From contig NZ_LMUM01000004.1 in assembly GCF_009765985.1 (NCBI RefSeq), positions 62,001 through 126,000 on the forward strand: a stretch of DNA of 64,000 bases. Reading direction: 5' to 3'. A model generated the notes under the pieces. It was given only the letters and a program-made list of their open reading frames with translations, ran no database searches and was not told the DNA's origin. Source of the DNA: Acidobacterium sp. S8. Its GTDB lineage: Bacteria > Acidobacteriota > Terriglobia > Terriglobales > Acidobacteriaceae. Position numbers and translations under genes: made by a program. Positions 41,912 through 58,069 of the stretch are shown here, one piece after another; the first letter of the stretch is position 1, and each line of letters starts with the position of its first letter.

Positions 41912-41963
41912 CTTATCAATGACTTAACGGGGGATGATCCCCCCGTAAGCTATTGAAAATAAA
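41912..41963. terminator. Long imperfect palindrome between convergent genes
   Basis: CTTATCAATGACTTAACGGGGG is mirrored by CCCCCCGTAAGCTATTGAAA and the bases after it, with ATGAT between. The outer arms carry the AT-rich motif also seen at 15594 and 55871-55962. It lies between the membrane protein gene (plus strand) and the 3' end of aroA (minus strand), so a bidirectional terminator is likely. The rest of the gap 41707-41911 holds nothing recognisable. Confidence 0.6.
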
Positions 41964-41994
41964 CGAAATGGCGAAAGTAAGGGGGAGGGGGGTA

Positions 41995-54342: not shown

Positions 54343-55076
54343 TTTGTGGCTCCAAGGTGCTCTGGAGCGTGCTTTTTGAGCCATATTTCGTACTCATTTT
54401 CTGAAACTACCTGGAGGTGGGTCTGCATGCGAGCGTGGCCGGAGCCGCAGACCTGCGAGCAAAGGATGGGGTAGTCGCCCGGAGTGTCGGGGGTGAAGTG
54501 GATGTGCATTTCCATGCCGGGGACGGCGTTTTGCTTCACGCGCATGCCGGGGATGAAGAAGCCGTGGATGACGTCGATGCTGCGGATTCCTAGGTCGACT
54601 TCGTGGCCCGCCGGGAGTATGAGGATGCTCGATATGATGTCGTCGGCGCTATGTTCGTCGGTGCGGTCGACGCCGAGGGGGTTTCCTGCCGGAGCATTGA
54701 TGAGTTCGGGGCGGGTGAGGCCGAAGGTGGCGTCGGCACCTGGGTAGCGGAAGTACCACTGGAACTGCTCTCCGGTGATTTCGACTTGCAAGGCGTTTGG
54801 TGCTGCGCCTTGGAAGCGGATGGTAGCCCAGAGTTTCTGGGCGCTGATCGCCATCCATGCGTAGAGAAGCGTGAGCCCAGCCAGCGGCAGGAATTTCCAG
54901 CGGAGTTGCGAGAGATCGTTACCGCTTTTCCTGGTGCGGAAGAGTGCGGCGATGAGGAAGATGTGGGCGAGTAAGAAGAGTGTGGTGAGCGCTGTCAAGT
55001 TCCACCACATCAGGTGGTCGATTGCCGCGCCGTGCAGGGCTCCATTGGGCGGCATCCACCAGATGTGGTCGGTCAT
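54339..55076 (-). CDS. coxB: Cytochrome c oxidase subunit II
   Basis: The 245-residue protein has two N-terminal transmembrane segments (NLTALTTLFLLAHIFLIAAL and KFLPLAGLTLLYAWMAISAQ) and a periplasmic cupredoxin domain. The CuA ligands are visible: His171 in DVIHGFFIPGMRV, Cys206 and Cys210 in LCSQVCGSGHARM, His214 and Met217. Gln208 replaces the Glu found in many oxidases (CSEICG). EITGEQFQWYFRYPGADATF is the Trp/aromatic electron-entry block. There is no C-terminal cytochrome c domain. It is first in the coxBAC group. Confidence 0.93.
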   Translation of the reverse strand: MTDHIWWMPPNGALHGAAIDHLMWWNLTALTTLFLLAHIFLIAALFRTRKSGNDLSQLRWKFLPLAGLTLLYAWMAISAQKLWATIRFQGAAPNALQVEITGEQFQWYFRYPGADATFGLTRPELINAPAGNPLGVDRTDEHSADDIISSILILPAGHEVDLGIRSIDVIHGFFIPGMRVKQNAVPGMEMHIHFTPDTPGDYPILCSQVCGSGHARMQTHLQVVSENEYEIWLKKHAPEHLGATK

Positions 55077-55129
55077 AGAATCATTGTCGCTCAGTGGGGC
55101 TATTTGTGATGCATCATTGGACTTCCCAA

Positions 55130-55187
55130 GGCTAAAGCCCTGAGAAGTTCGCTCATTTTCACCGGCCTAAAGGCCGGTGCTTCTACC
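55130..55187 (+). repeat. Palindromic repeat family C, copy 1
   Basis: GGCTAAAGCCC (55130-55140), then about 20 bases, then ACCGGCCTAAAGGCCGGT (55161-55178) followed by GCTTCTACC. Both parts are short hairpins. Copy 2 lies at 56396-56456 in the same orientation. Confidence 0.75.
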
Positions 55188-55233
55188 CAAAGACCAGGTT
55201 CTACTCTTCTACCTAAGGAGGGGATCTATCGAT

Positions 55234-55839
55234 TCAGCGAGATTGGTTTTGTTGGGATCGGACGAGATCGACGAAGAAGCGATGGACGCGGCGGTCGGTG
55301 GATAGCTCCGGGTGGAATGTGGCGGCGAGAATGTTCTTTTGACGGACCAGGGTGGGAAAGCCGTCGCGTTCGGCGAGCACTTCTACTTCGGGGCCGGTTT
55401 TGATGATGCGCGGGGCGCGGATGTAGACCATTTCGAGCGGTCCGCCTTCGAGCTGCGTAGGAGCCTGGATGATGGCGCTGTCGAGCTGGCGGCCGTAGGC
55501 GTTGCGTTCTACAGTCGCATTGAGGACGGCGAGGCTTTCCTGCGAGGGGTTGCGCACCTCTTTTGCCAGCAGGATGCATCCGGCGCAGGTGCCGAAGGTC
55601 GGCTTCTGGCGGACGAAGCTCTGGAGGGCGTCGAGGAAGCGGTCGCGGGCAAGAAACTTGAGGAAGGTGGTCGATTCGCCGCCGGGGATGATGAGGCCAT
55701 CGATGCTGGCCAGCTCTTCGGGCTTGCGGACGAGGATGGCTTCGGCTCCGGCATCGCGTAGGGCTGAGGCGTGGGCGTCGTAATCGCCCTGAATGGCGAG
55801 GACTCCGATGCGTGGCGGATTTTGCGTTTCGGCGGCCAG
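55234..55839 (-). CDS. pdxT: Pyridoxal 5'-phosphate synthase glutaminase subunit, probable CTG start
   Basis: PdxT supplies ammonia to PdxS for PLP synthesis. The 201-residue class-I glutaminase reads IGVLAIQGDYDAHASALRDA, GLIIPGGESTTFLKFLARDR, GTCAGCILLAKEVRNPSQES with the nucleophile Cys in GTCAG, and ILAATFHPELSTDRRVHRFF with the catalytic His-x-Glu. All triad residues are present. No ATG, GTG or TTG lies in frame between the upstream in-frame TAG and the conserved core, except a GTG well inside it. The best candidate is a CTG at 55839, with GGGGAGGGG about four to twelve bases upstream, giving LAAETQNPPRIGVL. If CTG is not used, the gene may be silent. The TAG is next to an AT-rich repeat cluster. 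Confidence 0.85.
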   Translation of the reverse strand: MAAETQNPPRIGVLAIQGDYDAHASALRDAGAEAILVRKPEELASIDGLIIPGGESTTFLKFLARDRFLDALQSFVRQKPTFGTCAGCILLAKEVRNPSQESLAVLNATVERNAYGRQLDSAIIQAPTQLEGGPLEMVYIRAPRIIKTGPEVEVLAERDGFPTLVRQKNILAATFHPELSTDRRVHRFFVDLVRSQQNQSR

Positions 55840-55857
55840 GGTACCCCTCCCCTATTT

Positions 55858-55974
55858 TGTACGGGGATTGTTTATTTTCAATAATTTACAGGAAATATTC
55901 TGTACGGAGATCGTTTATTTTCAATGGTTTAGTTTTATGCGGCTAAGCTGTTGAAAATAAAAGGTTCCTGTAAA
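55858..55974. repeat. AT-rich palindrome cluster upstream of pdxT
   Basis: TGTACGGGGATTGTTTATTT (55858-55877, then TCAATAATTTAC) and TGTACGGAGATCGTTTATTT (55901-55920, then TCAATGGTTTA) are near-identical direct copies. TAAGCTGTTGAAAATAAAAG at 55943-55962 is the inverted copy. TTTACAGGAA (55885-55894) and TTCCTGTAAA (55965-55974) form an outer inverted pair. The TTATTTTCAAT core also occurs, inverted, at 41951-41963. Bases 55975-56130 show nothing recognisable. Confidence 0.75.
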
Positions 55975-56130
55975 TCATTTGCAGAAGACTATTTTCAGAA
56001 TCTTGTCTCTATATTCAGGATACCTGATTTGGGTGTAATACTCTGCCAATGGTTGTTGCGACGAATAAAATTTAACCGGCACCTTTAATGTGAACGCTTG
56101 CCGTGAGGTGCTCAGCGACTTGGTTAGGAA

Positions 56131-56167
56131 AACCCAGGTTAGCTTCGCGAACCTGGGGCACCCGTTT
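56131..56167 (-). repeat. Palindromic repeat family A, copy 3 (inverted)
   Basis: AACCCAGGTTAGCTTCGCGA with ACCTGGGGCACCCGTTT after it is the reverse complement of the copies at 33103 and 34601, with the same hairpin arms. Confidence 0.85.
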
Positions 56168-56234
56168 CTATGGATGTGGCTAGAGTGACGGATGGTTCGT
56201 GGGCAGGTGTCAAACTATGACCAGCCTGATTTGA

Positions 56235-56261
56235 GATTCTTCGCTGCGCTCAGAATGACGG
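56235..56261 (+). repeat. Single half of the 43336-43539 element
   Basis: GATTCTTCGCTGCGCTCAGA then ATGACGG matches the right half of the terminally inverted element at 43499-43539. It lies alone here. Confidence 0.65.
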
Positions 56262-56307
56262 ATGGTGGATTTTGATGCGCTATGTAACCACATCCGAGTG
56301 CATGAGA

Positions 56308-56347
56308 ATCCCACCCTTTCGCAGAATGCGCGAAAGGATGGGGCACC
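56308..56347 (+). repeat. Palindromic repeat family B, copy 1
   Basis: ATCCCACCCTTTCGCAGAAT with GCGCGAAAGGATGGGGCACC after it. The arms CCTTTCGC and GCGAAAGG form a hairpin. Copies lie at 57645 and, in shortened form, at 59679. Confidence 0.75.
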
Positions 56348-56395
56348 GGCGTCAATCGGTCGCGGTTTTTATATGGAAAATGAGGAGAAGCGCGG

Positions 56396-56456
56396 GGGCT
56401 AAAGCCCGTTCTGATACCGCTGGGGTTCACCGGCCTGAAGGCCGGTGCTTCTACCT
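56396..56456 (+). repeat. Palindromic repeat family C, copy 2
   Basis: GGGCTAAAGCCCG (56396-56408) and CACCGGCCTGAAGGCCGGTG (56429-56448), followed by CTTCTACC. It matches the copy at 55130 and is in the same orientation. Confidence 0.75.
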
Positions 56457-56510
56457 GTTAGCCCGCGAATACTCTACCTGCCAATCCACGAATGCGTGGA
56501 GTGTAAAAGA

Positions 56511-56541
56511 CTCAGCTTTTTGACAAGCTGAGCCTTTTGTT
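56511..56541. terminator. Terminator of pdxS
   Basis: CTCAGCTT (56511-56518) and AAGCTGAG (56525-56532) form an eight-pair hairpin. T-rich bases follow on the plus strand, and the complement of the preceding GTAAAAGA gives a short T tract on the minus strand. It lies 34 bases past the pdxS stop and would stop pdxS transcripts before pdxT. Confidence 0.75.
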
Positions 56542-56574
56542 TTTGCGCGAAGCGGGATTGTCTGAACGGCCAGT

Positions 56575-57540
56575 TCACCAGCCGCGGGTTTGGAGGAGTT
56601 GTTCCTGGTCCAGGGTGGAGATGGCCAGACCCTTCATGGTTCCGGTTACTTGTTCGGAGGCTTCGGCTACTTTCTTGGGATCGTTGTAGTGGGTGGTTGC
56701 TATGACGATGGCGCGGGCGCGGGATACGGCTTCGGCGCGTTCGGCTGCGTCGTGTTCGACGTCGAGCGGGGTGGCGCGCTCCTTCATGAAGATGCCAGAG
56801 CCGACGAAGACGGTTTCTGCGCCGAGCTGCATCATGAGGGCTGCGTCGGCGGGGGTGGCGATGCCTCCGGCGGAGAAGTTGGGAACGGGAAGCTTGCCGG
56901 ATTTTGCGACCATGCGGATGAGTTCGTAGGGCGCCTTATGTTCCTTTGCGGCGACGTAGAGCTCGTCGTCGCCGAGGACGGTGAGCGAGCGGATGTCGCG
57001 GACGATCTGGCGCATGTGCTTCACGGCGTGGACGACATCGCCGGTACCGGCTTCGCCCTTAGTGCGGATCATGGCTGCGCCTTCGGCGATGCGGCGGAGG
57101 GCTTCGCCGAGGTCGCGCGCGCCGCAGACGAAGGGCGTGGTGAAGGCGTGCTTGTCGATGTGGTTGGCCTCATCGGCGGGGGTGAGGACTTCGGACTCGT
57201 CGATGAAGTCGACGCCGATATCCTGCAGCACCTGGGCTTCGACGAAGTGGCCGATGCGGGCCTTGGCCATGACCGGGATGGAGACGGCGGCCATGATTTC
57301 CTTGATGAGCTTGGGGTTGGCCATGCGGGCGACCCCGCCTTCAGCGCGGATCATGGCGGGGACGCGCTCGAGGGCCATGACGGAGACTGCTCCGGCTTCT
57401 TCGGCAATGCGGGCCTGCTCTACGTTCATGACGTCCATAATGACGCCGCCTTTGAGCATTTCGGCGAGGCCGATTTTGAGGCGGAGGCCGGTGGATGTGG
57501 TGCCGTTCTGATTGCCGTTGTTTGCGTGCAGGTCTGCCAT
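56575..57540 (-). CDS. pdxS: Pyridoxal 5'-phosphate synthase subunit
   Basis: PdxS builds PLP from ribose 5-phosphate, glyceraldehyde 3-phosphate and ammonia from PdxT. The 321-residue TIM-barrel shows [40 protein letters not shown], the imine-forming Lys in [16 protein letters not shown], and a second catalytic Lys in [40 protein letters not shown] is the phosphate-binding block, followed by [14 protein letters not shown]. All key residues are present. The start ATG at 57540 has GAGAGGG upstream. A terminator follows, so pdxT appears to be transcribed separately. Confidence 0.96.
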
Positions 57541-57644
57541 GGTGTTTCCCTCTCGACGGCTGCGCGAAGTGTTATATGAGAGCGCAGCTTAAATTCTTCG
57601 GAACACTTAAGTTTATACCGTTTCGGAGGGATCAGGGGATTGCT

Positions 57645-57684
57645 ATCCCACCCTTTCGCAGAGAACGCGAAAGGATGAGCACCC
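57645..57684 (+). repeat. Palindromic repeat family B, copy 2
   Basis: ATCCCACCCTTTCGCAGAGA with ACGCGAAAGGATGAGCACCC after it. It differs by a few bases from the copy at 56308. It lies between pdxS and the DUF4242 gene. Confidence 0.75.
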
Positions 57685-57793
57685 AGTGTTTGCGCGTTGA
57701 AATAAGTGCTGGACTTCACTGGGGGATTGGCGAAGAATTCAGGCTCGATGTTTCTCTTTGCGGGTTGAGGGTTGCATTCAGAGGAGGACAGGG

Positions 57794-58069
57794 ATGCCGA
57801 AGTATTTGATTGAGCGCGAGATTCCGGGAGCTGGGAAGATGTCTGCGGAACAACTCAAGGCGGTTTCGCAGACGTCGTGCGGTGTGCTGCGAAAGCTGGG
57901 GCCGGAGATTCAGTGGCTGCACAGTTATGTGACTGAGGACAAGATTTACTGCGTCTATATTGCACCGAGTGCGGATGTGGTACGAGAGCATGCGGTGCAG
58001 GGCGGATTTCCGGCGAACCGGATTTCACGGATTGAATCGATGATCGATCCGACGACTGCGGACGCGTAG
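57794..58069 (+). CDS. DUF4242 family protein
   Basis: The 91-residue protein matches the DUF4242 pattern: MPKYLIEREIPGAGKMSAEQ with LKAVSQTSCGVLRKLGPEIQ, then WLHSYVTEDKIYCVYIAPSA and REHAVQGGFPANRISRIESM. The family is small and ferredoxin-like and of uncertain function. The HSYVT and CVYIAP strands hold the conserved His and Cys positions. The ATG at 57794 has GAGGAGGAC upstream, which decides the start over an earlier in-frame ATG at 57758. It appears monocistronic. Confidence 0.87.
   Translation: MPKYLIEREIPGAGKMSAEQLKAVSQTSCGVLRKLGPEIQWLHSYVTEDKIYCVYIAPSADVVREHAVQGGFPANRISRIESMIDPTTADA

Follow-up and report, generated by a model that had tools for sequence, protein, structure and literature searches.

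The pdxT gene of the soil bacterium Acidobacterium sp. S8, which encodes the glutaminase subunit of PLP synthase and belongs to vitamin B6 biosynthesis, has no canonical start codon in its sequence; a CTG occupies the same place in three species, and a dispersed repeat, or a relic of it, is present in the pdxT leaders of those three alone among the 102 compared. We think it likely that an old insertion of this repeat at the pdxT start replaced the leader and left a functional CUG start backed by a strong ribosome site. The gene lies in a 64,000-nt stretch of DNA (the window, meaning the whole stretch that was analysed) on contig C6 of a draft genome of 5.44 Mb (38 contigs, 99.99% complete).

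Reading frame and candidate start codon of pdxT

Read from the CTG, pdxT covers positions 55234–55839 of the minus strand and encodes 201 amino acids. The first-pass annotation of the window had reported a complete PdxT, and the profiles bore this out: TIGR03800 was matched over its whole length (model positions 1–184 of 184) with 205 bits (cut-off 105.55), the Pfam SNO profile also matched, and the best-matching solved chains were PdxT/YaaE. Residues G83-T84-C85-A86-G87 and H176-P177-E178 occupied invariant columns across nine relatives; the Cys of GTCAG and the His-Glu of HPE are presumably the glutaminase residues. Upstream of the conserved GVLAIQG core, the frame (55974–55234, minus strand) reads TAG (55854–55852), GRGT, a leucine from the CTG (55839–55837) and then AAETQNPPRIGVLAIQGD. 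The in-frame TAG sets the upstream limit for the start, and the absence of ATG, GTG and TTG noted in the first pass was complete (0 in the 15 open codons from the TAG to the core). With canonical starts only, the longest ORF in this frame has 107 aa. As far as can be judged from the sequence, the CTG, 11 codons ahead of the core, is well supported as the sole plausible start within this open stretch. An internal start at the GTG at 55557 was rejected, as it would cost 94 residues, including the GGES loop and the catalytic Cys.

A ribosome site had been assigned to this CTG, and the pairing energies agree with that assignment. The predicted Shine–Dalgarno sequence, GGGGAGGGG (55844–55852, minus strand), sits inside the G-rich end of the repeat described below and is followed by TACC and then by the CTG, a spacing of 4 nt. 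Computed with the genome's own 16S 3′ end (CCTCC), anti-Shine–Dalgarno pairing was −12.0 kcal/mol in S8 (G000), and −11.0 and −5.8 kcal/mol at the corresponding sites of two relatives that share the CTG (G020 and G001, respectively). As controls we took the strongest candidate start at each of 96 loci with a canonical start (three of the 99 controls had none in range), which gave a best value of −11.0 and a median of −4.6 kcal/mol. The predicted S8 site is stronger than the best of these relatives, and that of G001 is average. A short hairpin between the ribosome site and the repeat unit is possible in all three genomes and might lower translation; the S8 leader fold had no extra stability over shuffled sequences (z 0.61).

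Conservation of the CTG in related genomes

Of 100 genomes searched with the protein, 86 had a match at E ≤ 0.001; a few of these matches, that of G002 at 4.7e-6 among them, are probably other glutaminases. With a profile, 359 of 398 genomes of the family matched at E ≤ 1e-60. Named genomes were scanned as well, and the 80 best of 386 loci were taken; the closest named relatives among them were labelled Acidobacteriaceae, Acidobacteriales, Silvibacterium or Acidobacterium. We compared the leaders of 139 loci (L018–L156), 103 of them distinct, by listing all start codons from the upstream stop to the core. Eight rows, corresponding to five distinct leaders, lacked ATG, GTG and TTG within 45 codons: those of S8 (two rows), of G001 from the same genus (two rows, one being JAATFH010000262.1), of G020 from another genus (two rows), L030 and L102. 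S8, G001 and G020 carry a CTG exactly 11 codons ahead of the core (−11), within 15, 57 and 48 open codons without a canonical start, respectively, and none of the 99 other distinct leaders (L018–L127 set) has an in-frame CTG there. pdxT offers, at the sequence level, a natural candidate for an evolutionarily kept CUG start in a conserved enzyme gene. A sequencing error hiding an ATG near 55839, which the first pass had named as a possible refutation, is unlikely because independent genomes carry the CTG. G001 is a draft genome, 77% complete.

Other relatives start elsewhere. pdxT opens with GTG at −14 in G003 (same genus as S8) and with ATG at −12 in G130 (same genus as G020), in both cases without repeat or CTG, and an ATG at −11 is found in G042 and G266. 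An alignment of leaders from close relatives had been suggested as a way of locating the ancestral start; the listing of start codons revealed the shared CTG, and the ancestral position cannot be fixed because starts across the family vary from −3 to about −29.

As to the two remaining leaders, in L030 (G011) a CTG stands at −15, with TTG codons further out at −51 and −65, and L102 (bin fen_409) has in-frame ATG or TTG codons only at −86 and beyond, with an out-of-frame ATG near the core; both are possibly further non-canonical starts or assembly errors. Among the other loci, L092 and L115 stand on contigs titled Rhodanobacteraceae, their pdxT being 68% and 66% identical to Acidobacteriaceae pdxT, and are probably mislabelled or mixed bins. 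The closed genome of Terriglobus roseus DSM 18391 has two pdxT loci (L089 and L090) ∼460 kb apart that share their leader and have equal identity.

An interspersed repeat at pdxT

The direct and inverted copies that had been noticed near the TAG are well defined. Two direct 36-nt copies on the minus strand, repeat unit 2 (TAAATTATTGAAAATAAACAATCCCCGTACAAAATA; 55853–55888) and, 43 nt further upstream, repeat unit 1 (55896–55931), agree at 86%, and a more decayed inverted copy, a weak profile match, lies on the plus strand at 55943–55972. This cluster is not a product of chance, because further copies of the sequence occur in other parts of the genome. The family is ∼95 nt long and consists of two direct units (CTAAACCATTGAAAATAAACGATCTCCGTAC) 43 nt apart plus a G-rich end. 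The second unit continues into ACAAAA and then into the G-rich end (e.g. AGGGGAGGGGTACCC), which is present in other copies too and in several of them extends to GTACCC. Several dispersed copies with common ends mark it as an interspersed family.

In the S8 genome the sequence matched 17 times at E ≤ 1, and seven of these matches, the pdxT copy among them, were nearly full length. A model derived from 16 copies (G000, G130 and G003; the pdxT copy again included) gave at least 14 matches at E ≤ 0.01 in S8 (150 of 727 first-look candidates scored), at least 23 in G130, at least five each in G003 and G002 and at least three in G001 (150 candidates scored per genome); these cross-genome counts are lower bounds because several hundred candidates per genome were available. 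In the closed genome of G020, none of the 150 candidates scored out of 415 reached E ≤ 0.01, and no other copy was clear, two matches having E values of 0.09 and 0.59. Judged by eye from gene names and pairing, a copy at an epimerase-like gene is common to G000, G003 and G002 (L005, L199 and L231), one at a tatA-like gene to G000 and G001 (L003 and L227), and copies at two convergent gene ends to G000 and G003 (L011/L204 and L017/L205). As apparently the same genes bear copies in several species, the insertions look old. Some copies face the 3′ end of a convergent gene.

Each unit contains TTGAAA-16-CAGAAT/CAAAAT on the pdxT strand; these are two of the four promoter-like sites of the region, where 1.1 were expected on both strands, and would fit a promoter inside the repeat units. 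By eye, an ATTAC-12-TATNNT-like motif also recurs ∼40–110 nt upstream of the first unit in several copies (flanks of L002, L004, L006, L008 and L014, and 56060–56005 of the window), and may be a promoter or a piece of a longer repeat. A related second repeat type occurs at 41939–41990 (plus strand) and in L010, L015, L016, L017, L198 and L205: TGAAAACACTA-like and TTGAAAATAAAC-like units surround a GGGGGATGATCCCCC hairpin, followed by GGGGGAGGGGG, and in several cases it ends close to a convergent gene's stop codon. An Rfam search of 54800–57800 gave one match at E ≤ 1, to HgcC, which lies outside the repeat and, with 19.1 bits against a gathering threshold of 50, was taken as chance.

Association of the repeat with the CTG

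To score the leaders (102 distinct, 150 nt each), we used a profile of the six other near-full S8 copies, with the pdxT copy left out. The S8 leader scored 84.7 bits, G001 14.3 and G020 11.4, the next best being 0.6; the best of 1000 dinucleotide shuffles reached 2.6 bits for G001 and 6.7 for G020. With the G-rich end removed from the profile, G001 kept 14.6 bits and G020 dropped to 4.8 bits (E 0.19), the highest of 1000 shuffles being 3.5. On these scores the relic at G001 pdxT is clear; that at G020 pdxT rests largely on the G-rich end and is probable rather than certain because of the drop to 4.8 bits. The three matching leaders are exactly the three with a CTG at −11 and no canonical start, and all of them fall among the five of 102 whose 45-codon range holds no canonical start (hypergeometric 5.8e-5, where G000 and G001 are not independent). 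The profile scores thus make the link between repeat and CTG real in G000 and G001 and probable in G020.

A comparable arrangement was found at a second gene. In G130, the end of this repeat (AGGGGAAGGGG) directly precedes the opening GTG of tadA, which scored 65.4 bits with the repeat profile; none of the 12 tadA loci of other genomes matched. An ATG lies within a few codons of the same position in 10 of these 12, and the remaining two (G038 and G182) have just GTG/TTG codons at the position and an ATG further in. The GTG start in G130 is likely rather than proven, since an ATG further in exists there as well. From the sequences, the repeat end has apparently taken over a start region on at least two occasions, once at pdxT and once at tadA.

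Placement was surveyed over 46 distinct copies reaching the G-rich end, left from 84 matches in G000, G001, G002, G003 and G130 after 20 short ones and duplicates were dropped. In two of the 46 (pdxT and tadA) the repeat end stands at ribosome-site distance from a convincing start, and arguably in one more, at a gene of G130 that by eye resembles a peptidase. There (L193), the repeat terminates with GGGAGGGTATT (3′ end at ∼1232), CTG AAA AGG ATG follows, and the gene possibly starts at the CTG or the ATG. With two, perhaps three, of 46 copies, we rejected the repeat as a general gene-start element and claim no enrichment at starts.

pdxS, the intergenic region and selection on pdxT

pdxS, the lyase subunit gene of PLP synthase, lies upstream on the same strand (56575–57540). 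It was identified by curated profiles and Pfam, passing NF003215 and falling just under the TIGR00343 cut-off (431.4 versus 438.45). A hairpin with a short T-run follows at 56538–56505 (−20.3 kcal/mol, z −6.5) and, by fold and consensus scan, is a probable terminator for both strands; the scan calls it on the plus strand only, the T-run on the pdxS strand being TTTT. After it come ∼665 nt of minus strand without a called gene, repeats present, and then pdxT, ending at 55234. That a terminator separates the pair, as first described, holds in so far as the hairpin is there; the separation itself is not special, as the gap from a pdxS-like end to the pdxT core is ≥200 nt in 30 of the 85 leaders (out of 103 examined, by a loose motif) that have such an end upstream. 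In G001 the pdxS–pdxT gap (L048, 1–850) contains a hairpin as well as a short ORF whose N-terminus looks signal-like by eye and which was not seen between the pair in S8.

Ungapped position-by-position comparison of the PdxT core gave a dN of 0.082 and a dS of 1.09 between G000 and G001, and 0.153 and 1.16 between G000 and G020; dS was saturated against G003. By this measure pdxT is under purifying selection. The Pfam profile of PdxJ had no match in the S8 genome, in a search where control genomes responded as expected in 4 of 14 cases, and PdxS/PdxT are likely the only source of de novo PLP because PdxJ was not found. Taken from its sequence, pdxT looks functional, working rather than broken.

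Discussion

We infer CUG usage, the insertion as its cause and the origin of the UG from the arrangement of repeat, ribosome site and start. A low-copy interspersed repeat would have inserted at or just before the pdxT start in the ancestor of G000 and G001, probably also of G020, and replaced the native leader. The C of the CUG would lie in or next to the repeat end (GTACCC), replacing the first base of the old start, and the UG is perhaps a remnant of the native start. Because the G-rich repeat end is predicted to pair very strongly with 16S rRNA, it could offset the weak start codon; in the order we propose, the strong ribosome site came first and the weak start was tolerated afterwards. 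The first-pass annotation had already proposed that an insertion replaced the native start. The leader comparison and the position of the ribosome site in the repeat end strengthen that proposal and change its timing: the event was not recent, as the CTG stands at the same place in another species and another genus. Losses or separate gains are required because pdxT of G003 and G130 has neither repeat nor CTG, and their order is not settled since none of the 12 inner branches of a protein tree of 15 PdxT was well supported.

The CTG could instead predate the repeat and have no connection with it: point mutation in the common ancestor would have produced a CUG with a G-rich ribosome site, and in G000 and G001 the repeat would have inserted upstream at a later time. 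Such a history would suit the weakness of the G020 match without the G-rich end and the lack of another clear copy in that closed genome. We nevertheless consider it improbable, given that the full-profile score of G020 exceeds 1000 of 1000 shuffles, that matches are confined to the three CTG leaders and that the CTG is absent from G003 and G130. Silencing, which had been raised as the alternative to a CTG start, is very unlikely. PdxS is able to use free ammonia and could run on it if pdxT were poorly translated, and a weak start, a ribosome site that can pair with the repeat unit and the terminator after pdxS all point that way; the low dN relative to dS, the intact domain and the missing PdxJ argue against it, as does the unusually strong predicted ribosome site. 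We give least credence to initiation at another near-cognate codon (ACG at −7 or ATC at −1) or at a canonical codon masked by sequencing error, given the recurrence of CTG and ribosome site at one place in three genomes and the residues, among them GGES and the catalytic Cys, that the GTG at 55557 would forfeit.

With the CUG start left by an old insertion as the preferred reading, the system resembles the known DXP-independent PLP synthase in being an ordinary enzyme pair, both members complete by curated profiles, and differs in that pdxT appears to open with CTG and that a terminator and a non-coding stretch with repeats lie between it and pdxS. Hecht, in 2017, reportedly measured starts across 64 codons. 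Bacteria rarely initiate at CUG, but given a good ribosome site this codon can function, since the available part of PMC6925171 lists CTG among the start codons giving 31.1–73.5% of ATG with an E. coli lacZ reporter. It does not always do so, since two engineered E. coli strains with CTG on crtI have a value of 0.00 in the same text (PMC6925171). Compared with these engineered starts, the candidate CTG start of pdxT is natural, belongs to a conserved metabolic gene and recurs at the same place in three species.

Our literature search, of partial coverage and so no proof of absence, found neither a pdxT described as starting with CTG nor a description of this repeat. Among known small repeats, REP elements have an associated transposase. 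Like REP palindromes, as characterized in the accessible portion of PMC3733652, the pdxT repeat is short and dispersed, with mostly intergenic copies; its ∼95 nt with two direct units and a G-rich end set it apart, by description, from a GTAG/CGTC-tagged palindrome of 20–40 bp with a tagged end. The pneumococcal BOX element is likewise a small interspersed repeat giving translation signals: according to the available sections of PMC3049150, certain expressed frames take their start codon from boxC, and these frames match hypothetical proteins only and are without good Shine–Dalgarno candidates. The pdxT repeat, in contrast, would give a ribosome site to a conserved enzyme gene.

Gene finders limited to ATG, GTG and TTG would miss pdxT or call it truncated. 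More broadly, and tentatively, a repeat of the Acidobacteriaceae that carries a ready-made ribosome site may take over initiation when it lands at a gene start and free the gene from ATG, as at pdxT (CTG) and separately at tadA (GTG), with the CTG form persisting through speciation. A mobile repeat could alter a start codon by this route, which lends itself to testing.
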